NCBI GenBank assembly: GCA_020846775.1
Contig: JADLDG010000016.1
Span: 1-38,027 of the forward strand
Length of the DNA stretch: 38,027 bases
From: Nitrospirota bacterium
GTDB taxonomy: Bacteria > Nitrospirota > 9FT-COMBO-42-15 > HDB-SIOI813
Direction: 5' to 3'
Numbering within the stretch: position 1 is the first letter of the stretch; each line of letters begins with the position of its first letter. A program made the position numbers and the translations under genes. The notes beneath the pieces were generated by a model. That model did not search any database. It saw only the letters and a list, made by a program, of their open reading frames with translations, and had not been told where the DNA came from. This document shows positions 26,398 to 38,027 of the stretch, one piece after another.

Positions 26398-27114
26398 ATG
26401 TACAAAGTAATTATGAGAAGAAACTTATTCGCAGTATCATCCACAGTCATCTTCTTGTCAGCCTCCCTGCTTTTCACCGGTTGTGCTGGAAGCAACAAGA
26501 CCGATACCCTATCTAAAGCGGATAGTCTTACTGATAGTCTTAAAGAGCTGTACGATGCAGATGCACTCATAAAGAAGGCTGATAAGCTTTTTTCGGAAAA
26601 GGATTACCCTGGGGCCATTCAGGAATACAAACGCTTTCTCGAGCTGCATCCTATTCATAAGTCAGCCGCTTATTCCCAGTATAGGATAGGACTTTCATAC
26701 TTCAAACAGATCAAGTCAATAGACAGAAACATAGAACCTGTTCAAAAAGCACTGAGTGCGTTTGATACTGTTGTAAAGGTCTACCCTGACAGTGATTACA
26801 CTAATGACGGTATGGAAAAAATCAGGATATGCCGGGACAAATTAGCAGAGCGGGAATTCTACATTGGCAGCTTTTATCTTCACAAGGAAGATTACCTGGC
26901 GGCCATCGTAAGATTTAATAATATCCTGACAGATTATAAAGACACATCGGTTGCTGAAAAAACACTATACAATCTTGGAATCGCATACAGGTCTTCAAGC
27001 AAAGAGGACAAGGCTAAAGAAACCCTACAGCACCTTCTGACTCTCTATCCTGAGGGCAAGTATAAGGAAGATGCCTCGCAACTGCTCGCCAAACTGACCA
27101 GCAATTTACAATAA
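26398..27114 (+). CDS. BamD-like outer-membrane assembly lipoprotein (TPR repeats)
   Basis: A lipoprotein of 238 residues. Its signal peptide ends in a lipobox (LLFTGC) and the mature protein is made of TPR-like repeats (AIQEYKRFLELHP, ALSAFDTVVKVYPDS, AIVRFNNILTDYKDT, AKETLQHLLTLYPEG). The arrangement matches BamD/YfiO of the beta-barrel assembly machine, although other TPR lipoproteins look similar. The Met at 26413 (MRRNLFAV) gives a more compact signal peptide and may be the real start, since the first ATG lies within a promoter-like -10 (TAATAA). Confidence 0.8.
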   Translation: MYKVIMRRNLFAVSSTVIFLSASLLFTGCAGSNKTDTLSKADSLTDSLKELYDADALIKKADKLFSEKDYPGAIQEYKRFLELHPIHKSAAYSQYRIGLSYFKQIKSIDRNIEPVQKALSAFDTVVKVYPDSDYTNDGMEKIRICRDKLAEREFYIGSFYLHKEDYLAAIVRFNNILTDYKDTSVAEKTLYNLGIAYRSSSKEDKAKETLQHLLTLYPEGKYKEDASQLLAKLTSNLQ

Positions 27115-27134
27115 TAAATTACTAAGCATAATTA

Positions 27135-27251
27135 GAACGTCAGAAATGGCTTTCTACAAGGCGGACGACGAAGGGAACCGCAGGCGTACTTTTAAGTACG
27201 TTGAGGATTTCCTGAGGAGTCCAACGCCGTAGAAAGACATTTATGACGTTC
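27135..27251. repeat. 117-bp long near-palindrome (MITE-like) between convergent genes
   Basis: The outer arms GAACGTCAgAAATGgCTTTC and the complement of the right end agree at 21 of 23 positions. Inner pieces also pair: GGCG with CGCC, GAC with GTC, AGG-type segments and a GTACTT/AAGTAC core. The whole unit could fold as one long hairpin. It fills the gap between the BamD-like gene and larE, extends over the larE stop codon, and could serve as a bidirectional terminator. I recall closely similar units recurring in other genomes. Confidence 0.7.
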
Positions 27252-28080
27252 GTATCCCTTCATTCATGCTGCCGGTTCGGTATCCCTCAAGATCAAGTGT
27301 AACATAGGTAAATCCGAATTCTTTGAACTTCTTTACAATCTTATCTCTCAACGAGAGGTCTTCCATGAACTGATTTAACTCATAAACAGATAACTCGACG
27401 CGTGCCACCTCTCCATGGTACCGGACGCGGAATTGTTTAAAACCAAGCTGACGCAGAAATGTCTCACACATACCAACCTGCTCTAATCTATCTTCTGTAA
27501 TCTCTGTACCATAAGGAAACCTTGAAGAAAGACAGGCAAAGGAGGGTTTATCCCAGTTAGCGAGTCCAAGCATCTTGCTTATTTCCCGGACCATTGCTTT
27601 TGTAAGTCCTGCCTCTACAATGGGACTCCGTACCCCGAGTTCCCTGGCAGCCTCTGTTCCCGGCCGGTAATCTGACAGATCGTCAATAGTAGTCCCGCAG
27701 GCTATATGGTCAATATGTAACTCATTAGCTATAGTCTTCAGTTTATCAAACAACTCCATCTTGCAATGATAACAACGGTCAGCATTGTTTTTTGAAAAAT
27801 CAGCAATCTCTAATTCATTGGATTCTATAAGGATGTGCCTGATACCTATGGAAAACGCTATCAGCCTGGCATCTTCTATTTCATAGGACGGGTAGGTAGG
27901 TGACGTGGCTGTTACAGCGACCGCCTTACAGCCAAGGGAGTCATAAGCAATTTTTGCTATAAGAGAGCTGTCAATCCCTCCGGAAAAAGCGACTACAAGA
28001 GATCCCATCGCTTCTATAATATCTTTGAGTTTAAGATATTGATCCCGGACATGGGGTTCGGGATGAGGCTGGTTATTCAC
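27241..28080 (-). CDS. larE: ATP-dependent sacrificial sulfur transferase LarE
   Basis: A PP-loop pyrophosphatase of 279 residues. The PP-loop reads AFSGGIDSSL (31-40), with NNADRCYHCK (C103, C106), DLSDYRPGTEAARELGVRSP and KPSFACLSSR, where C183 is at the sulfur-donor position. LarE sulfurates the pyridinium cofactor of the nickel-pincer nucleotide used by lactate racemase-type enzymes. The larB and larC partners and a racemase are not in the window. The start is GTG at 28080, overlapping the stop of the upstream M16 gene as GTGA. Its last codons and stop come from the palindromic repeat. Confidence 0.93.
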   Translation of the reverse strand: MNNQPHPEPHVRDQYLKLKDIIEAMGSLVVAFSGGIDSSLIAKIAYDSLGCKAVAVTATSPTYPSYEIEDARLIAFSIGIRHILIESNELEIADFSKNNADRCYHCKMELFDKLKTIANELHIDHIACGTTIDDLSDYRPGTEAARELGVRSPIVEAGLTKAMVREISKMLGLANWDKPSFACLSSRFPYGTEITEDRLEQVGMCETFLRQLGFKQFRVRYHGEVARVELSVYELNQFMEDLSLRDKIVKKFKEFGFTYVTLDLEGYRTGSMNEGIRTS

Positions 28081-29450
28081 GGCTGCAATCCTGTTTTTTC
28101 CTGTTTGCCTACTACAACTGTTATGTAGTTGTCTGCATCAATATACTTCCTGGCTACCCTCAGTATATCATCTTTAGTTACGCTATCTATTTTCCTTGCA
28201 TATTCATTCACATAGTCAAGCCCAAGGTTATAGAACTCAACCAGGACTAAAAAGTTCGATATCTTAGAGTTCGTATCCAGTCTCAGTGGAAAGCTCCCGG
28301 TGAGATATGCCTTTGCATCCTTTAATTCATCATCTTTAACCTTTTCTTCTCTGATCTTTTTCAACTCTTCCCTGATCCCTGCTATAGCCTCCCTCGCAGT
28401 TTCGTTCTTTGTCTGTAGCTCTACTGAAAAGGCCCCGGAATACTTATTTACGTCAAAGCGGCTGTATACTGAATACGCAAGCCCCTTCTTATCCCTGATA
28501 TCCCTGGTCATGCGCGACTCAAAACCCCCGCCGCCAAGTATGTAGTTCATCAGCGTTACTGCATAATAATCCGGATTGTCTCTTGAAATACCTGTATGGC
28601 CTAAGACTATATTAGCCTGTGTTATATTCCGGTCAATAAGTATAGAATCACTCTTCATGACTTTCTTAACTGAAGGAACTTCAGGTAATTTCAACTTAGA
28701 CTTTTTCCATTGTTTGAATGATGTCTCAATGAGAGAAAGAGCCTCCTTATACTTGAGATCACCTGTAACTGCAATAATAGTGTTATTGGGTTTATAAAAT
28801 TTCTGATAAAAATTTATTATGTCATCCCGTGTAATCCTGCTGACAGATTCCTCATCACCTTCAACCGGCATGCCGTATGGGTGCCCCTGGAACACGGCCT
28901 TGTAGAACGCCTTGGATGCAACTGCCCCGGGATCATCCTTTTCCGATATAATCGCGGCTATTGTCTCTTTTTTCTTTCTCTCCAGCTCTTCTTCCGGAAA
29001 TACCGGGTTCAGCAGGATGTCAGACAACAAATCCATACCCGTAGCCAGATCCTTTTTTAGTACAACCAATGAAGCTGTGGAAATGTCTTCACCGCCGGAC
29101 GATGATAGTCTGCCGCCTATAAAATCAATCTCTTCTGCAATCTGCCTTGACGATCTGCCCCTGGTTCCCTCATCAAGCAATGCTGCTGTAAGGCTGGCAA
29201 CCCCACCCTTTTCCTGCGGGTCATATACTGCACCTGCCCTTATGGCTACTGATATGTTGACCATGGGAAGGGCGTGAGTTTCTACAAAGAGAAGGGTGAT
29301 GCCATTTTTTAAGACAACCCTCTTTGGCTCAATACCGGGAGAGGCAAGGGATGTCGAGACCCACAAGAATAATATTGTAAGAACGACAGAAATTTTCCAT
29401 ACACTATGCTTTGTATCGCTTAATCTCATCCTTAAAACTAACCCTCTCAT
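28077..29450 (-). CDS. M16-family peptidase subunit without zinc motif
   Basis: A 457-residue secreted or periplasmic protein with a hydrophobic N-terminal segment at about 19-36. The fold is that of pitrilysin-type M16 proteins (LKNGITLLFVETHALPMVNISVAIRAG, GGVASLTAALLDEG, MTRDIRDKKGLAYSVYS). The HxxEH zinc site is replaced by SLTAALLDEG, so it is inactive, but the Arg/Tyr segment of the C-terminal half is kept. It is the expected non-catalytic partner of the gene upstream, with which it overlaps by four bases. Confidence 0.92.
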   Translation of the reverse strand: MRGLVLRMRLSDTKHSVWKISVVLTILFLWVSTSLASPGIEPKRVVLKNGITLLFVETHALPMVNISVAIRAGAVYDPQEKGGVASLTAALLDEGTRGRSSRQIAEEIDFIGGRLSSSGGEDISTASLVVLKKDLATGMDLLSDILLNPVFPEEELERKKKETIAAIISEKDDPGAVASKAFYKAVFQGHPYGMPVEGDEESVSRITRDDIINFYQKFYKPNNTIIAVTGDLKYKEALSLIETSFKQWKKSKLKLPEVPSVKKVMKSDSILIDRNITQANIVLGHTGISRDNPDYYAVTLMNYILGGGGFESRMTRDIRDKKGLAYSVYSRFDVNKYSGAFSVELQTKNETAREAIAGIREELKKIREEKVKDDELKDAKAYLTGSFPLRLDTNSKISNFLVLVEFYNLGLDYVNEYARKIDSVTKDDILRVARKYIDADNYITVVVGKQEKTGLQP

Positions 29451-30763
29451 TCCTGCGGCAATGGCACAAGTATGCCAACCGTCCTGTTATCCTCAATAAA
29501 ATACTTCTGTGCAACCCGCATTATATCCTCTGGTGTAACCTTCCTGATTTCGTCAATATAGCCTTCCAGATACCTTGCCCCCGCACCTGTAGTTTCAAGC
29601 TGACCTATCAGCATTGCCTGGTAGAAAACCGAGTCCTGTCCCATAATGAACGATGCCTCTATCTGGTTTCTTGCCTTCTGAAACTCTCTCGCTGAGACAG
29701 GCTCTCTTTTTATCCGCTCGATTTCTTCATTTAACGCTGTCTCAGCCTCTTCTGTTGTACTGCCGGGTTTAAGTTGTGCATAAAAATAGAATAGTTCCGG
29801 GTCGGTCTGTATAGGTGTATAACCACCGCCGGCAGCAAGCGCTATCTGTTTTGAATAAACCAGGTTCTGATACAGTCTTGAACTCTTACCCCCCGACAAT
29901 ATTTTACTCAACAGATCAAGCGCATAGTGATCCATTTCTTTATAATTAGGGGCATGGTATCCATAAATGACATAGGGTAGTTGCGCCTCACGCTTATAGA
30001 GAAACCGCCTCTCCCCCTTTTGTTCACTCTCAGTAATTTTTACTTCAGGAACAGGATGGGCACCTCTCGGAATGCCGCCAAAATAGTGTTCTATCTTTTT
30101 GACTAATTCATCCGATTGTATATCCCCTACAACAACAATGGTGGCGTTGTCAGGTCTGTAATATTCCTTATAATGATCGTAAAGGTCTTCCCTCGTAAGA
30201 TTGTTCAGGTCTGTCATCCATCCAATTACGGGTGAATGATAAGGATGTATCTGAAAGGCATCGGCATATAGCTCTTCAATCAACGATGAAACAGGGTCAT
30301 CTTCAGTGCGGAGCCTTCTTTCCTCTTTAACAACATCACGCTCCAGCATGAACTCACCCTGGTCAATCAGGAGGTTTGTCATACGGTCAGATTCCAGATC
30401 CAGGGATATCTCATACCTGTCGCTCGATATATTCTGAAAATAGGCGGTATAATCCTGGCTTGTAAAGGCATTCTCGTTGCCTCCGTTTCTTGCCACTATA
30501 GCGGAGTACTCGCCTTTTCCATATTTAGTCGTGCCCTTGAACATCATATGCTCAAGCATATGTGATAAACCAGTCTTACCCGTGACCTCGTTGCGGGAAC
30601 CAACCTTGTACCAGATTTGAACTGTTACGACCGGGGATTTGTGGTCCTCTACAGTGACAATCTTGAGACCATTCGGTAGATAGTGCTCTCTTATTTCTGA
30701 GCCAATTGCTGGACCTGAAAGTAATAACAGTATTGTTATTGCTATTGTTATGATTCCTGACAC
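29447..30763 (-). CDS. M16-family zinc peptidase, catalytic subunit
   Basis: A 438-residue protein with a signal peptide (hydrophobic residues 4-20). The inverted zinc motif HMLEH is at 68-72 (H68, E71, H72) and the distal Glu region is VVKEERRLR. It is the active half of a two-gene M16B peptidase pair, analogous to YmxG/PqqL-type or mitochondrial processing peptidase organisation. The start is GTG at 30763; a TAA lies four codons upstream in frame, so it cannot begin much earlier. GGAGG is separated from this GTG by a single base, an unusually close ribosome site. Confidence 0.93.
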   Translation of the reverse strand: MSGIITIAITILLLLSGPAIGSEIREHYLPNGLKIVTVEDHKSPVVTVQIWYKVGSRNEVTGKTGLSHMLEHMMFKGTTKYGKGEYSAIVARNGGNENAFTSQDYTAYFQNISSDRYEISLDLESDRMTNLLIDQGEFMLERDVVKEERRLRTEDDPVSSLIEELYADAFQIHPYHSPVIGWMTDLNNLTREDLYDHYKEYYRPDNATIVVVGDIQSDELVKKIEHYFGGIPRGAHPVPEVKITESEQKGERRFLYKREAQLPYVIYGYHAPNYKEMDHYALDLLSKILSGGKSSRLYQNLVYSKQIALAAGGGYTPIQTDPELFYFYAQLKPGSTTEEAETALNEEIERIKREPVSAREFQKARNQIEASFIMGQDSVFYQAMLIGQLETTGAGARYLEGYIDEIRKVTPEDIMRVAQKYFIEDNRTVGILVPLPQE

Positions 30764-30891
30764 ACCTCCATATTACAGACACCTGCATCGGGTGTCAAGG
30801 ATGTGAAAGCCATTCACCAGGTAATGTTCATTATCACTAAGCGAAAACTGATTGACACAAAAATAAGCGGGATTTACCTGTCGCCGTTTTC

Positions 30892-31884
30892 TCAAATGTG
30901 GTGAGGCAGTAAGATAGATGCATTTGTCCAGAGGTCTGCTTGATAAGTGCGGGCCGTACCTCTTACCGCATCGTAGAGTATAATTCCATCATCAGAAAGG
31001 GTAAATATTATCTGCCTGTCTGAATAGCTGTTTGCCATATCAATTTCAGATGGTGGTTCCATGTAGTCGTTATGAAAATGAAAGAGGCCAATATATTCTC
31101 CCTCAATCCTGGTTGAACCAAGAAAAGATTTAAAGACTATGGGAGAAAGGACATACTTTAACTGCGAGTAGAGGTCATAAGTCCTGATAAAATCTTTTAT
31201 GAGTTTGTCTTTTATGGGGTAACTGATTGAATCCGTAGACAGCACTTCAATCAACCTTTTTGTAATCTCACTGTCAACTTCAACCCTGGTAAGAATCCCT
31301 ATGCTTTCTTCTTCCTGTAAAAGAGCGAGGAATTCACTTACCGACGATTCGGCGGTTGCCTTGAGTCTGTCTGAGAAAGACTTGTTTATAGATGGTATCT
31401 CATAAAGATGAAGCCTGGGGTTATCCTTATCATATGATATCGTCACTATACCACCAACTTCTGTGTTGAGGTAAGCCTTTGATGCAATGATCCTGCTGTA
31501 TAACTGTTGAACTTCACTCTTATTCGTTAATGCTATCGCTATGTCTTGAGATGGTACCTGACCTATACCCAACAAATATTTTTTTACTATTGCAACTTCT
31601 TTAAAATGCCCTATCAGGGCATAGGGGAAATCTGTTGACACCAGGTTGTACATAACTGCGGTGCCCTTTAAAAAATAAAGATTTCTCTCTTCAATGTTTT
31701 TTAACGGGGAATCAATCGGCGGAATTAAGACCGTTAACAGCTCCAGGTAAAGCACAAAAACGGGGACCAGCCAGTAACTGTTAATACTCCTTCTTATCCT
31801 GTTACTGAATGAACTTTTTCTGCGGTCAACAAAATTAAACTCAAAAAATGAAGTAGTATAATTTTCAATGCTGTTTTTATCCAT
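30892..31884 (-). CDS. Predicted membrane-anchored JAMM/MPN-type metalloprotease
   Basis: A 330-residue protein I do not recognise as a named family. A single membrane helix lies at about 37-55 after a basic stretch. In the C-terminal half, H269-F-H271, seven residues, then S279-E-I-D282 match the JAMM zinc motif HxHx7SxxD exactly. TEVGGIVTISY (E142) resembles the first strand with the catalytic Glu. About 127 residues separate the two, longer than in typical JAMM domains. That would suit an inserted helical segment (SDRLKATAESSVSEFLALL). It has no close partner gene and is divergent from the MltD-like gene. The assignment rests on the motif pattern only. Confidence 0.55.
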   Translation of the reverse strand: MDKNSIENYTTSFFEFNFVDRRKSSFSNRIRRSINSYWLVPVFVLYLELLTVLIPPIDSPLKNIEERNLYFLKGTAVMYNLVSTDFPYALIGHFKEVAIVKKYLLGIGQVPSQDIAIALTNKSEVQQLYSRIIASKAYLNTEVGGIVTISYDKDNPRLHLYEIPSINKSFSDRLKATAESSVSEFLALLQEEESIGILTRVEVDSEITKRLIEVLSTDSISYPIKDKLIKDFIRTYDLYSQLKYVLSPIVFKSFLGSTRIEGEYIGLFHFHNDYMEPPSEIDMANSYSDRQIIFTLSDDGIILYDAVRGTARTYQADLWTNASILLPHHI

Positions 31885-31976
31885 ACATAGACTTGCACCG
31901 CAATATTTATGCCATTACCTCCCCAATTTATTATAAAGTTGCAATTTGAGTCCCTTGTTATTATAATAACCATCTC

Positions 31977-33143
31977 ATGAAAACCTTTAAATCGCTATTA
32001 GCCGGCAGTATAGTGCTGATATGGACAGTTCTCATCATTGCTGTTGCGGGAAATAATGAAGCGAGGGCTGAGGACCCTTTTTCAATATCCGCATACCTGA
32101 ACGATTCTATATTTAACAGCGAACATATTGCTTCATCCGGAGATATGCCGCAATACATATTGGAAAAGACAGCTTTATACCTGAAATCTTTCACAACATC
32201 CAAGCGTGATTTATTCCAGAAGTGGCTTGATCAGTCCATACCGCATATGCTTCTCATCAAGAAAATATTGAGGGAAGAGGGCTTGCCGGAAGACCTCGCC
32301 TTTCTTCCATTGATCGAGAGCGGGTTCAATGTTAATGCCCGTTCGAGTGCAAAGGCAACAGGCATGTGGCAGTTCATGGCTACTACAGGGGCACATTACG
32401 GACTCGAGGTAAATAGCTGGATTGATGAGCGCAGAGACCCTGTCAAGTCCACAAGGGCGGCGGCTCGGCATCTTAAGGATTTATATGAAACGTTCGGTTC
32501 ATGGCCGCTCGCATTGGCATCATATAATGCAGGAAGTGGAAAAATAAAGAGAGTACTTGATGACAGCAGTTCATCTACATTCTGGGAGATAGGGCAGAGC
32601 AAGGCATTAGCAGCTGAAACGAGAAACTATATACCAAAATTTATGGCAGCAATGATAATTGCGAGGAACCCGGAGTCCTTCGGTTTCACCTTCATGGAAG
32701 TCCCTGCTTTTCAATACGACTTTTTGGAGGTTCCAGCCGGAATGGACGTAAGCACTATTACAGAACGGTCAGGCATCAGCACTGATTTAGTACGCTCTAT
32801 TAATCCGGAATTGAGGGGTAATACAACTCCTATGAGCGAACCTACTTATATTTTACGCCTTCCAAGGGGTATTGGTACTGTTTTCCTGGATAATTTTGAT
32901 GGTCTCCTGCCTGCTGAAAGGGTCGTATATAACGAATACAAGATAAGAAAAGGCGACAGTGTATATTATATTGCAAAGAAATTTCAAACCACGGTTTCTG
33001 CTATCAGAGATGCAAATAAACTTAAAAAGAGAAGCCGTATTATAGCTGGTAAAACCCTTCTTGTTCCAGTAAGGCTTTCATATTCCAGTAATATAGCAAG
33101 ACTTGTAACACCTTCCAATATCTCTCCTGACATCACCCTTTAA
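31977..33143 (+). CDS. MltD-like lytic transglycosylase with LysM domain
   Basis: A 388-residue peptidoglycan-cleaving enzyme of the envelope. An N-terminal signal or anchor (8-24) precedes an SLT domain with catalytic Glu E114 (LPLIESGFN), SAKATGMWQFM, DPVKSTRAAARHL and ALASYNAGSGKI. A C-terminal LysM domain (about 318-363, YKIRKGDSVYYIAKKFQTTVSAI) should bind glycan. It belongs to the MltD-type family, but only one LysM unit is clear. The N-terminus has no lipobox Cys, so it may be anchored or secreted. Confidence 0.92.
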   Translation: MKTFKSLLAGSIVLIWTVLIIAVAGNNEARAEDPFSISAYLNDSIFNSEHIASSGDMPQYILEKTALYLKSFTTSKRDLFQKWLDQSIPHMLLIKKILREEGLPEDLAFLPLIESGFNVNARSSAKATGMWQFMATTGAHYGLEVNSWIDERRDPVKSTRAAARHLKDLYETFGSWPLALASYNAGSGKIKRVLDDSSSSTFWEIGQSKALAAETRNYIPKFMAAMIIARNPESFGFTFMEVPAFQYDFLEVPAGMDVSTITERSGISTDLVRSINPELRGNTTPMSEPTYILRLPRGIGTVFLDNFDGLLPAERVVYNEYKIRKGDSVYYIAKKFQTTVSAIRDANKLKKRSRIIAGKTLLVPVRLSYSSNIARLVTPSNISPDITL

Positions 33144-33370
33144 CTCGATAATATGTGTGTCGTGGTTCATTATCGTATAAAACTTCTACACGAACTACTT
33201 ATTGTAGAAAAAATAGTCACCCAATCTCCTGCAAATCAGCTATAGTACCCACATCCTATTGATTTTACAGCTAATATTCGTTTATATACATTTTGCACGA
33301 ATATTGCAAAATAATAGCTTGGCACGTGTGAACAGAGATTCTACATCATTGAACAGCAAAGGAGACGATC

Positions 33371-33697
33371 ATGGAAGACGGACATAAAATGCGTGACCCG
33401 CAGACATCAAAAATAGCTATGGAATTGCACCTCGCGAAGTTTAATTATTATATGGCAAGACAAGACTGGAAGTCTGCCGTCACAGAGTTGCAGCATGCCC
33501 TTAATGCTGTTATAGATATTCTTGACCACGCCAACAAGACATTAAAGAAGGTAGTGGAAAAGTACCAGCCTGTTAAGACTGAAACAAAAATTGAAGGAGC
33601 CGTGAGGAGTGAGAAGTTATCTGATGATATGTTATTAATTGAGTATCCTGACAATAAGATTGTCATAAAAAAACAAACTCCTCCTGCCGTCAAGTGA
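33371..33697 (+). CDS. Small hypothetical protein, 108 residues
   Basis: A strong AAAGGAG lies 6-8 bases before the ATG at 33371. The product has two helical segments (SKIAMELHLAKFNYYMARQDWKSAVTELQHALNAVIDI) resembling a TPR-type helix pair, then a basic tail. No signal peptide or cysteines are present and I do not recognise the family. It stands alone, followed by a hairpin and a convergent MFS gene. Confidence 0.7.
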   Translation: MEDGHKMRDPQTSKIAMELHLAKFNYYMARQDWKSAVTELQHALNAVIDILDHANKTLKKVVEKYQPVKTETKIEGAVRSEKLSDDMLLIEYPDNKIVIKKQTPPAVK

Positions 33698-33709
33698 GTC
33701 TTTAAAAGG

Positions 33710-33745
33710 TGACGCTGAAGATATGCACCCTTTTTCAGCGTCATT
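33710..33745. terminator. Bidirectional hairpin between convergent genes
   Basis: TGACGCTGAA and TTCAGCGTCA form a perfect 10-bp stem with a loop of about 15 bases containing a T run. It sits between the small protein gene and the convergent MFS gene, overlapping the latter's last codons. There is no U tract outside the stem, so it is only a likely terminator. Confidence 0.5.
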
Positions 33746-35114
33746 CATCATTTCTATGGTTTTTCTTATCCCTGCCTGTAAAAAGATCGAACTTTAGACC
33801 TGACAACGGTCTTATTGATGAAACTCGAATAATAAGCTCTTTAAACGTAATCGCCTCAACCTCCCGTATTTCCATAATAGTTGGTAGAAAGATTAGAGAC
33901 ATTATTAGTCTTGAAATCCCTGAGAGAAGAAAAAGCCATTGAAGATTCGATATTATATTTATCCTGATATCAAATATTGAAATCGAGCCGGGGAGATAGC
34001 CTGACAACCATCCACCTAAAAAGCCTCCTAAGAATATACCGCAGGCATTTAAAATGTTAAAGATAGCAACACATTTTGCACGCTTTGGTGAAGGGATGGC
34101 ATCATATATGAAATTTGCCATGCTTAGGTTGAATCCCGCCCATGTGAGTCCAGCCAGCATCTGTATAACCAGGATGAAATAGAAGTTGTCTGAGAAAAGC
34201 CAAAGAACCGGAACTATCGGGAGCGTAAAACCTGTAATCTCTAATACCTTTCTGTTACCGAATCTATCACCAAATTTTCCCCAGTTATGAAGCGTAAAGT
34301 ATTGCATAAGTACAACCACTGAAACGGCAATCATAAACTGGAGATAAGAGAATTTGAGGTCTCTAAGCATATAGACAGCAAAGAAAGGACCTGCCAGCAT
34401 GACAGAGAAATGCATAAGTCCGGTGTAAATTACGAAGCGAACAAAGGTCGAATGCCTGAAACCTGAAAAAAACTCTATCAGACTGAAATCATCCCTTTCG
34501 TCTATATGATAATAAGGGTTCTCCATCTTAGACAATGAATAAGCTGATAAGAGGCGCGCAACCACAGCTGAGACAAAGAGTATCGAAAAACCAATCCATG
34601 GATTGCCGGCTTTTTCAGTGCCATGAAGCAGTAAACCTCCAAGTGCAATAGCGCCCAAGCTGTACATGCTCATTATCCTGTTGCGATATCCAAAGTATGC
34701 CCCGCGGTTAGATTCAGGTACAATGTCACCCATCAGGCTGTTCCATGGAGGGGTCGACAGGTTTCCGAATATGTAATATGCAGTAACACTTATTATGAGT
34801 AGGATCGAAGCATAGGGTTTAAAAAACATCGGGAGGATTAACAGCGGTATCCATGATAGGGCCTGTGCTACAACACCATAAATGATAATGGGCATCCTGT
34901 CCTTAATCCTGTTTAGCAGGCTTACAGAGAACAGCTGCATAAACGCACCAAGGAGCTGAGGTATTGATGCAAGCAATCCAATCTGGGAATTGGACAATTT
35001 CAGGTAAATCGCGAATGCACTTATATAGCTTTCTCCGGCACCCCCCATAATGGCAAAATAAATACCGTCTTTGATTGCATAAGTCAGACTTTTTGAATAG
35101 GTTTTTTTAGCCAT
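33741..35114 (-). CDS. Major facilitator superfamily transporter
   Basis: A 457-residue membrane protein with about 12 predicted membrane segments. MFS hallmarks include the loop 2-3 region NRIKDRMP and the similar repeat GKFGDRFGNRKVLEITG, plus STPPWNSLMGDIVPESNRGAYFGYRNR. The substrate is unknown. The ATG at 35114 is used as start instead of a TTG one codon before. It is leftward and divergent from the PAP2 gene, with no operon partner visible. Confidence 0.88.
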   Translation of the reverse strand: MAKKTYSKSLTYAIKDGIYFAIMGGAGESYISAFAIYLKLSNSQIGLLASIPQLLGAFMQLFSVSLLNRIKDRMPIIIYGVVAQALSWIPLLILPMFFKPYASILLIISVTAYYIFGNLSTPPWNSLMGDIVPESNRGAYFGYRNRIMSMYSLGAIALGGLLLHGTEKAGNPWIGFSILFVSAVVARLLSAYSLSKMENPYYHIDERDDFSLIEFFSGFRHSTFVRFVIYTGLMHFSVMLAGPFFAVYMLRDLKFSYLQFMIAVSVVVLMQYFTLHNWGKFGDRFGNRKVLEITGFTLPIVPVLWLFSDNFYFILVIQMLAGLTWAGFNLSMANFIYDAIPSPKRAKCVAIFNILNACGIFLGGFLGGWLSGYLPGSISIFDIRINIISNLQWLFLLSGISRLIMSLIFLPTIMEIREVEAITFKELIIRVSSIRPLSGLKFDLFTGRDKKNHRNDE

Positions 35115-35185
35115 CAAGAGAAAGTTTTGCCTAAAATCACCTTTCTGTCAATCAGGGAAGATTTTCTTTTCTTTCATCAAAAATT

Positions 35186-36013
35186 ATGGTAAGTTTGGCT
35201 ATGGTGAAAATGTGGATTTTTCTCGCAGCATTCACCTTATCGTTATGGTATCCATTCATTCATCCCGAGACCGTATTGGCAGATGTGAAAGCTTCTGATT
35301 CCACCGACAATTTCGGCGGTCTGCTTATAAAGGATACTATTTATGTATTATCGGGACCTGTACAATGGGACGCAAAGGCCTGGAGGGATTTTTCCCTATA
35401 TACAGCAGGGATCAGTTCCATCCTCCTGTTGGATGATGAAATCTATGATGGAATACAGCGCAACAGGAGTAAAACAACAAGTAACATTGCAAAAGTGGTT
35501 GAGGAGTTTGGATCTGCCCCATCATTTGGTATAATGGCGGCATTCTATCTCGGGGGTACAGTGTTCGACAATTTCAAGGCGAAGGATACGGCTGTGGATG
35601 CCGCTGTTGCCAGTCTTGTCAGTGCAGGAATTATTACAACATCTCTTAAGGTTATAGCAGGCCGGAGCCGACCCAGGGATAACGAGGGGACATATAAATT
35701 TCAACCTTTTGGCGGTCATCACTCTTTTCCGTCCGGTCATACGACACAGGCATTCTCTCTTGCATCGGTAATAGCAGAACATTATGATGAGTGGTGGATA
35801 GGCACGATATCTTACGGGATAGCGGGTGGCGTCGGATTAGCCAGGGTTGAGCAGGAGGCACATTTCGCATCAGATGTTGTAGCCGGGGCCTTGATCGGTA
35901 CTATAGTTGGTAAGACCATTGTGAGATATAATAGAAAATTCCATAAAAATGTTATAATAGGTCCTGCAACCGACATAGATGGTACCGGTCTTAGTCTTAC
36001 AATAGCATTCTGA
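35186..36013 (+). CDS. PAP2-family phosphatase (membrane associated)
   Basis: A 275-residue protein with an N-terminal hydrophobic or signal segment at 8-25. All three phosphatase motifs are present: K155...R162-P (KVIAGRSRP), S183-G-H185 (FPSGHTTQAFS) and R220...H226-x3-D230 (ARVEQEAHFASD). Such enzymes dephosphorylate lipid phosphates such as undecaprenyl pyrophosphate, phosphatidate or lipid A; the substrate is not fixed by sequence. It precedes mltA by 28 bases, suggesting co-transcription. Confidence 0.9.
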   Translation: MVSLAMVKMWIFLAAFTLSLWYPFIHPETVLADVKASDSTDNFGGLLIKDTIYVLSGPVQWDAKAWRDFSLYTAGISSILLLDDEIYDGIQRNRSKTTSNIAKVVEEFGSAPSFGIMAAFYLGGTVFDNFKAKDTAVDAAVASLVSAGIITTSLKVIAGRSRPRDNEGTYKFQPFGGHHSFPSGHTTQAFSLASVIAEHYDEWWIGTISYGIAGGVGLARVEQEAHFASDVVAGALIGTIVGKTIVRYNRKFHKNVIIGPATDIDGTGLSLTIAF

Positions 36014-36041
36014 TGACTGATTCGGAGGACATAATATCTTA

Positions 36042-37154
36042 ATGCGAAAAATATTTATTCTATTGTTACTGGTAATTTTAACTACCAGCTGCGCGGTCAG
36101 TCAGGCTAATCAGCCATCATCAGCCAGCAACTATTCCCTTGTATACGTTGACCCCCCACATGCATATGGCAACATTGACAGAAAGGCCCTGCGTGAGGCT
36201 ATCATAACAAATCTTTCATTTCTGCATAGAATAGATCCTGAGACAGAATTTGACTACGGCGGGAAGATAGTCCGCGCAAAGGAAGTTGAGAATACACAAA
36301 AGACCCTCCTCCAGATTATTGACACCGCTGAGTCCAATGAAATGATAGAACTGCTCATGGATTATATGTTTGAATGGTATAAGGCATCCGGAGAAAATGG
36401 TACTGGTAATGTGACATTTACAGGCTATTATGTCCCTGAGGTAGAGGGGAGCCTTCATCCGTCAGATAAATATCGCTACCCGCTCTATCGCCCGCCGGAT
36501 GACCTTAAAAAAGACTCCCCCTATTTTTCACGTATCGACATAGATGGGGAAAAGGTTTTATATGGTAGGGGCCTTGAGATTGCATGGCTTTCTGATCCGG
36601 TTGAGGCATATTTTCTCCATATACAGGGTTCCGGAACAATAAGGTTGCCTGATGGTTCTAAAATAGGGGTTCACTATGCTGGCAACAATGGCCATTCATA
36701 TACGAGCATAGGAAAGCTTATGTTAGAGCTCCGCCTTTTAAAACCAGGTGAAGCAAATATAATTGGATTAAAGAAGTACCTCTGGGAACATCCGGAGCAT
36801 ATGTCAGAGATACTGTATCAGAATCCAAGATACATATTTTTTAAGCTTGATAATGAAGGGGCAAAGGGAAGCATCCATGTACTTCTGACCCCGGGCCATT
36901 CTATAGCCACTGACCCGTCCCTCTTTCCAAGGGGAGGTCTATCTTTCATTAAGACTACAGCCCCGGTTGTTGATCAGTCCGGCAAAGTTCTCAAATGGGA
37001 ACCGGTTAATCGTTTCGTACTGAATCAGGACGAGGGGGGGGCAATAAAGGGTCCGGGCCGGGTAGACCTGTTCTGGGGAGCAGGTACTGACGCCGAATTC
37101 TCTGCAGGCTCAATGAAAGAACGTGGAGAGTTGTACTTCATACTGCAAAAATAA
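36042..37154 (+). CDS. mltA: Membrane-bound lytic transglycosylase MltA
   Basis: A 370-residue lipoprotein; the lipobox is LTTSC at about 13-17. The MltA domain follows (GYYVPEVEGSLHPSDKYRYPLYRPP, LEIAWLSDPVEAYFLHIQGSG) and then the 3D domain with FVLNQDEGGAIKGPGRVDLFWG, which holds the catalytic Asp. It cleaves peptidoglycan glycan strands from the outer membrane. A GGAGG is 13-14 bases before the ATG, wider than ideal. It may form a short envelope operon with the PAP2 gene upstream and murI downstream. Confidence 0.94.
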   Translation: MRKIFILLLLVILTTSCAVSQANQPSSASNYSLVYVDPPHAYGNIDRKALREAIITNLSFLHRIDPETEFDYGGKIVRAKEVENTQKTLLQIIDTAESNEMIELLMDYMFEWYKASGENGTGNVTFTGYYVPEVEGSLHPSDKYRYPLYRPPDDLKKDSPYFSRIDIDGEKVLYGRGLEIAWLSDPVEAYFLHIQGSGTIRLPDGSKIGVHYAGNNGHSYTSIGKLMLELRLLKPGEANIIGLKKYLWEHPEHMSEILYQNPRYIFFKLDNEGAKGSIHVLLTPGHSIATDPSLFPRGGLSFIKTTAPVVDQSGKVLKWEPVNRFVLNQDEGGAIKGPGRVDLFWGAGTDAEFSAGSMKERGELYFILQK

Positions 37155-37209
37155 GAACCACGACATCTGCTTGACTCAAACACTTAATTAGAATAGCATA
37201 ATCCTCACC

Positions 37210-38027
37210 ATGACGAACAACAAAGGCCCTATAGGTGTATTTGACTCAGGTATTGGCGGGCTTACCGTCCTCAAAGAGATTATCACCACTTTGCCGTACG
37301 AGGACACCCTGTACCTGGGAGATACAGCCCGATTGCCCTATGGAACAAAGTCTGAAGAGACTGTAGTCAAGTACTCAATTGAAAATACCCGTTTTCTATT
37401 GAAGTACAATATAAAGCTTCTTGTTGTTGCCTGCAATACCGCTTCAGCTGTAAGCCTCAGTGAACTACGGAAACAATTTTCGATACCAATCATAGGAGTG
37501 ATTGAAGCAGGGGCCCGTGCTGCATACCGGGCGACGAAAAGCGGCAAGGTTGGTATTATTGGGACTGAAACGACCGTAAGCAGTAGTGCATATACCAAGG
37601 CCATCAGGGAGATAAATGCTGACATTGAGACTTTTGGACAGTCATGTCCTTTGTTTGTGCCGCTTGTAGAAGAAGGGTGGATAGATGATGCCATTACACT
37701 TAGTGTTACAGAACGCTATCTTGGAGTACTTAAAGGCAAGGGTATAGACACGCTTGTGTTGGGGTGTACTCATTACCCGCTTCTGAAGGGGATCATACAG
37801 AAGGTAATGGGGGATAGTGTCAGGCTAATTGATTCTGCTGAAGAGACGGCTAATGAGGTAAAAGAGGTATTGAACAGGTTATGGGGAACAGAACTCAATT
37901 CTGTCCCCGACAGATCAGACAGGAAAGACACGGAAGTGAATGCCCCTGTCAGGAGATATTTTGTTACCGACGTCCCCCGCCGCTTTGAAGAGCAGGGGAG
38001 CAGGTTTCTTGGGGAGAGGATAGGGAA
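37210..38027 (+). CDS. murI: Glutamate racemase (3' end beyond the window)
   Basis: Makes D-glutamate for peptidoglycan. The N-terminal FDSGIGGLTVL holds D12. The two catalytic cysteines are C75 (VVACNTASA) and C186 (LGCTHYPLL), and LGDTARLPYGTKS is the phosphate-type loop. About 272 codons are visible; the family is usually 260-270 residues, so only a few residues are missing or it has an extension. A GC-rich palindrome encodes an atypical ELNSVPDRSD insertion at residues of about 228-237. Confidence 0.95.
   Translation, partial: MTNNKGPIGVFDSGIGGLTVLKEIITTLPYEDTLYLGDTARLPYGTKSEETVVKYSIENTRFLLKYNIKLLVVACNTASAVSLSELRKQFSIPIIGVIEAGARAAYRATKSGKVGIIGTETTVSSSAYTKAIREINADIETFGQSCPLFVPLVEEGWIDDAITLSVTERYLGVLKGKGIDTLVLGCTHYPLLKGIIQKVMGDSVRLIDSAEETANEVKEVLNRLWGTELNSVPDRSDRKDTEVNAPVRRYFVTDVPRRFEEQGSRFLGERIG
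37883..37908. repeat. Palindromic repeat inside murI
   Basis: The left arm GGGGAACAGAACT and the right arm AATTCTGTCCCC are complementary apart from one extra base and one mismatch. The unit is in frame and encodes ELNSVP near the murI C-terminus. It is related to the palindrome in putA at 810-832 (shared GAATT/GTCCCC elements). Confidence 0.5.

Follow-up and report, generated by a model that had tools for sequence, protein, structure and literature searches.

The window, i.e., the whole 38,027-nucleotide stretch of Nitrospirota DNA analysed here, carries a gene that belongs to a real, unnamed lineage of the JAMM superfamily outside the named Pfam and NCBIfam families. We consider it likely that the encoded protein is an inner-membrane-anchored zinc JAMM (MPN+) hydrolase with a probably periplasmic catalytic domain and a helical insert beside the active site. 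The first-pass annotation had described a membrane-anchored JAMM-motif protein of no named family, and this description is backed by residue conservation, profile comparison, the predicted MPN topology and a predicted membrane helix. The gene, the parts of its product and its divergent neighbor are as follows.

30892–31884, minus strand: predicted membrane-anchored JAMM-family protein, 330 aa (open reading frame, homologs, invariant JAMM residues)
31777–31884, minus strand: residues 1–36, positively charged N-terminus with invariant R21, R22, R31, R32 and N35 (alignment)
31714–31776, minus strand: residues 37–57, single predicted membrane helix, YWLVPVFVLYLELLTVLIPPI (hydropathy)
31570–31635, minus strand: residues 84–105, conserved segment after the membrane helix with invariant F86, P87, G92, H93 and E96 (alignment)
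31384–31524, minus strand: residues 121–167, first half of the predicted MPN core with E142, G144, G145 and S165-x-N167 (alignment, domain model, PADLOC JAB profile)
31171–31383, minus strand: residues 168–238, predicted helical insert of about 70 residues at the Ins-1 region (profile comparison, domain model, alignment)
30955–31170, minus strand: residues 239–310, second half of the predicted MPN core with Y244..P248..F251K252 and H269-x-H271-N-x6-S279-x2-D282 (PADLOC, alignment, domain model)
31977–33143, plus strand: MltD-type lytic transglycosylase with SLT and LysM domains, divergent neighbor (domain scan; beside the JAMM gene in 7 of 7 own-family loci with context)

JAMM residues and relationship to JAB proteins

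The open reading frame keeps the coordinates, strand and length of 330 aa first noted for it. It starts with ATG, and the open frame reaches just 10 codons further upstream, without another start. The JAMM signature ascribed to the protein can be read directly and exactly in this frame: E142, within LNTEVGGIV, is followed at a spacing of 127 by H269-x-H271-x7-S279-x2-D282 (HFHNDYMEPPSEID from residue 269). Shuffling of the protein produced the motif in 16 of 20,000 permutations. It would therefore be expected by chance about one to two times per genome of some thousands of proteins, so that the JAMM string alone is weak evidence and it is the conservation that makes it solid. Indeed, E142, G144, G145, H269, H271, N272, P278, S279, D282, S286 and R290 are invariant in 18 aligned homologs (28–87% identity) spanning four Nitrospirota families. 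Two homologs beyond these also keep the JAMM residues, and the catalytic set is invariant in the 20-sequence domain alignment. The four residues whose conservation was to be checked (E142, H269, H271, D282) are thus all retained down to 28% identity, including E142, which had been judged to lie in a plausible catalytic position. The other invariant positions among the 18 homologs are R21, R22, R31, R32, N35, W38, P41, N68, G74, F86, P87, G92, H93 and E96 in the N-terminal part and S135, S165, N167, L174, S240, K252, G256 and G300 in the rest of the protein. Values of dN/dS well below 1 (about 0.07/0.52 and 0.16/1.25) indicate purifying selection on the gene, and by all sequence criteria the protein is predicted to be catalytic. 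The motif F86 P87 x4 G92 H93 x2 E96 (31570–31635, minus strand), which sits between the membrane helix and the JAMM core, is conserved as strictly as the active site.

The family profile was compared with that of 30 ordinary JAB proteins from related Nitrospirota and gave an hhalign score of 42.1 (P 5.8e-6). With either profile, no score above 18.5 was obtained for 20 unrelated neighbor families, and none of 40 column-shuffled profiles scored above 16.1. Alignment over the whole domain placed only the HxH half correctly. After removal of the insert, TExGG (E142-x-G-G) fell on ExCG, S165-x-N167 on the TN of the JAB proteins, YxLSPxxFK (Y244..P248) on YxMDPxEQ, and HFHN on HSHP. Moreover, each half of the window protein has its own weak match to a PADLOC JAB profile (124–169 and 252–301). 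Prok-JAB is the Pfam family matched by most members (12 of 20, best E 0.0011), a PHROG tail-protein profile matches 6 of 20 (best E 0.0005), and the only match in a sequence search of the PDB was the MPN protein 2kcq (E 1.8). The window protein itself gave no match to Prok-JAB (PF14464) at E up to 10, below the gathering cut-off. Single-sequence scans of Pfam and NCBIfam returned no match for it, PADLOC made no confident assignment, and no curated JAMM model reached its cut-off. RadC, from which the protein had been set apart at first sight, is likewise without a match to it in Pfam or NCBIfam. On these sequence comparisons, homology of the family to known JAB proteins is detectable.

The helical insert and the predicted fold

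The distance from the glutamate to the first histidine is 54–57 residues in 29 of the 30 ordinary Nitrospirota JABs and 119–127 in the new family. The distinction from the small JAB proteins drawn by the first-pass annotation therefore holds, with a spacing of 127 against about 54. The surplus lies between the conserved N167 and S240, is 69–72 residues long in every member and is predicted in the domain model as about five helices, so that the 127-residue gap results from a helical insert of about 70 residues added to an ordinary spacing of about 54. Within the folded domain the insert varies most: the commonest residue at a position has a mean frequency of 0.40 in it, compared with 0.55 and 0.63 for the two halves of the core. 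We take it to occupy the same stretch of the chain as Ins-1 of Rpn11, CSN5 and AMSH, and by analogy it might play a comparable part. The Ins-1 region would then be able to hold a helical module of about 70 residues. In Rpn11, CSN5 and AMSH, one of the walls lining the substrate groove is Ins-1, which can close the groove off or open it (PMC9313428; PMC6043591).

In the full-length structural model the core was well predicted and the N-terminus poorly. A model of the domain alone (residues 84–318, 20 sequences) reached a pLDDT of 88.7 and a pTM of 0.79. It contains a helix (122–135), two strands, the helical insert, a helix (248–257), a strand with the HxH (263–270), a short helix (280–285) and three strands, and this predicted order of elements is that of an MPN domain. 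Cap3 (9ild) was the best match in both structure searches of the PDB (probability 0.85 and 0.96). In the Foldseek search with the probability of 0.96, it was followed by DSY2949, which is classed as a JAB by sequence, all matches having E above 0.001 and low TM-scores. In the viral structure library a phage JAB protein ranked first. The high E-values and low TM-scores are probably due to the insert, and they make the fold evidence supportive rather than decisive. The structure prediction and fold search suggested at the outset thus yielded an MPN order of elements with JAMM proteins as best matches (E above 0.001), and not a fold unlike MPN.

Membrane anchor, distribution and gene neighborhood

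The membrane helix noted earlier was recovered by hydropathy as the single predicted one, at about residues 37–57 (2.16 over 19 residues), without a second comparable segment. Across the members, 5–11 lysines and arginines precede the helix and 2–6 occur in the 30 residues after it (counted by eye in L026, since its best hydropathy window fell elsewhere), which by the positive-inside rule places the catalytic domain outside the inner membrane. In the members of one family, f25, the hydropathy of the helix is lower (1.3) and the charge difference slight. Taking this into account, we judge from the charge rule, as evidence of moderate strength, that the catalytic domain quite probably faces outward into the periplasm. 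The invariant R31 and R32 before the hydrophobic stretch led us to consider a twin-arginine (Tat) signal, which is unconvincing because of the invariant N35 at a hydrophobic position; the Tat consensus has a hydrophobic residue there.

A homology search found the protein in 11 of 61 related genomes, down to 30% identity, and a pattern scan of genome contigs had one related MAG as its sole match. One genome of the same genus is that of Nitrospirae bacterium RBG_16_43_11. The profile search for homologs proposed beforehand recovered the family in 17 of 396 sampled Nitrospirota genomes. These fall into four taxonomic families, namely that of the window genome, f2 (4 of 4 genomes of the order), f25 (7 of 8) and f31 (one genome), a grouping that argues for inheritance within few clades and not for a scattered occurrence. 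No homologs were found in plasmids and viral contigs. The JAMM lineage has so far been found only in a few Nitrospirota groups. One genome (G002) has two copies, L012:1492–2442 and L013:5001–5987, with 87% and 62% identity to the window protein, of which the copy with 62% holds the syntenic place beside MltD; duplication or a mixed bin might account for the pair.

In the window, positions 26398–38025 form an envelope cluster with a BamD-type lipoprotein, LarE, two M16 peptidases, MltD, an MFS transporter, a PAP2 phosphatase, MltA with a 3D domain and a glutamate racemase that runs off the end. The MltD-type gene, reported earlier as divergent, indeed encodes SLT and LysM domains and starts at 31977. 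Within its own taxonomic family, the JAMM gene is divergent to MltD in 7 of 7 loci examined. One flank carries two M16 peptidases, LarE and BamD, and the opposite flank a 108-aa protein, an MFS transporter, PAP2, MltA and MurI. G007 retains MltD and has other genes in place of the M16/LarE/BamD flank. The 108-aa protein (33371–33697, plus strand) adjoins MltD, is kept in all seven own-family loci and has no Pfam or NCBIfam match. In f25 the gene precedes that of ribosomal protein L9, opposite an apparently secreted protein and near bactofilins and parB, and in f2 its convergent neighbor is a short-chain dehydrogenase. In none of the three other families did the gene lie next to MltD, so that the argument from MltD rests on a single syntenic clade, and no partner gene common to all families was found in the loci compared. 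The context therefore suggests an envelope role but does not establish it. The early hint of such a role gains from the likely periplasmic domain and the peptidoglycan and outer-membrane genes of the own family, and its MltD part does not extend to the other three. The apparently secreted protein of f25, about 200 aa long, is divergent from the JAMM gene in four genomes (L042:7453–8136, minus strand; L043:4375–5031, minus strand; L044:10301–10954, plus strand; L046:7310–7894, minus strand) and gave no Pfam match in the one member scanned; it is a possible partner or substrate of the JAMM protein. Among the scanned window neighbors, no E1-like, E2-like or ubiquitin-like genes of the kind that mark ubiquitin-like modification operons (Bil, CBASS type II, sulfur carrier) were recognized, the 108-aa protein being the one without a match. 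A separate ordinary JAB is encoded in the same genome and in most relatives (53 of 61), which makes the membrane-anchored protein an addition and not a replacement.

Proposed activity, alternatives and known systems

The single N-terminal helix would anchor the protein in the inner membrane. As in other JAMM enzymes, the zinc ligands would be H269, H271 and D282, with E142 activating water and S279 stabilizing the transition state. The insert at the Ins-1 position may form a lid or a substrate-recognition wall by the active site, and the anchor would hold the enzyme to a membrane-near or cell-wall substrate in which a peptide or isopeptide bond is presumably cut. A more specific version, in which a periplasmic JAMM metallopeptidase with a helical Ins-1 lid cuts isopeptide-type cross-links of the cell wall (or processes envelope proteins) without a ubiquitin-like partner, is speculative and in our view unlikely.

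A JAMM domain on the cytoplasmic side, acting at the inner-membrane face on a sulfur-carrier, ubiquitin-like or other cytosolic substrate in the manner of most bacterial JABs, would agree with the usual position of bacterial JAB genes beside E1-like and ubiquitin-like or ThiS-like genes (PMC1779556), with the small charge bias in one family and with the cytosolic housekeeping neighbors in other families, such as ribosomal protein L9. However, invariant arginines fill the N-terminus, positive charges are fewer after the helix in nearly all members, the scanned window neighbors include no recognized E1-like or ubiquitin-like gene, and the genome already has a separate cytosolic-type JAB, so that we regard this placement as rather unlikely. 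Distinctly unlikely is a peptidoglycan endopeptidase or amidase that cuts stem-peptide or cross-link bonds beside MltD. The divergent MltD of the own family with PAP2, MltA and MurI nearby would fit it, JAMM enzymes cleave isopeptide bonds, a type to which the DAP cross-link can be assigned, JAB proteins of phage tails occur as fusions with NlpC/P60 (PMC1779556), and the PHROG tail-protein profile points the same way. Yet the three other families do not have MltD beside the gene, the own-family synteny was passed on as one block and does not count as independent evidence, and the Pfam scan found no LysM, SPOR or other wall-binding domain.

Non-catalytic scaffolds are numerous among MPN proteins (PMC9313428), and a scaffold or receptor in the envelope might be envisaged here as well; since the catalytic and metal-binding positions are invariant over four families at about 30% identity, unlike in MPN-minus proteins, this is very unlikely. 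That the motif is coincidental and the fold not MPN is extremely improbable. The frequency of the motif in shuffled sequences and the weak Foldseek E-values would allow it, but the profile match far above the controls, the JAB profiles on both halves, the strict conservation and the first rank of JAMM proteins in the PDB and viral structure searches all argue against it.

JAMM enzymes are mostly known from the cytosol, as deubiquitinases, and from bacteria, where they are paired with ubiquitin-like proteins. Our literature search of open-licence papers turned up no account of a bacterial JAMM that is membrane-anchored or periplasmic. A membrane-tethered, probably periplasmic lineage without adjacent ubiquitin-like genes would extend JAMM chemistry to the envelope and offers a clear case in which to test which further targets JAMM domains cleave. 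If the cell-wall cross-link reading were true, deubiquitinase chemistry would be used outside the cytoplasm.

With Prok-JAB (PF14464) and other small bacterial JABs, such as L057 of the same genome, the new family has in common the JAMM signature (ExCG / HxHx7SxxD), the predicted order of secondary structure and conserved positions (TN, YxMDP). The small proteins differ in their length of about 130 aa in this genome and their E-to-H spacing of 54, whereas the new family is extended by an N-terminal anchor and an insert of 70 residues, shows N instead of P after the second histidine, and lies below the Pfam cut-off. Cap3, the JAB of CBASS (9ild), is the best structural match, but with E above 0.001 and about 10% identity, and no CBASS genes were recognized around the new gene. 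Phage tail-assembly JABs have the JAB fold that is predicted here, with a weak PHROG match in 6 of 20 members and a phage JAB as top viral structure match, whereas the new gene lies outside a phage locus and encodes a membrane anchor and no NlpC/P60 domain. Rpn11, CSN5 and AMSH, which are cytosolic or belong to large complexes and have ubiquitin or NEDD8 as their targets, share the catalytic signature and likewise carry an insertion after the Glu strand and before the strand with the HxH; their Ins-1 positions or blocks the tail of the substrate and is shorter than the insert of the new family.
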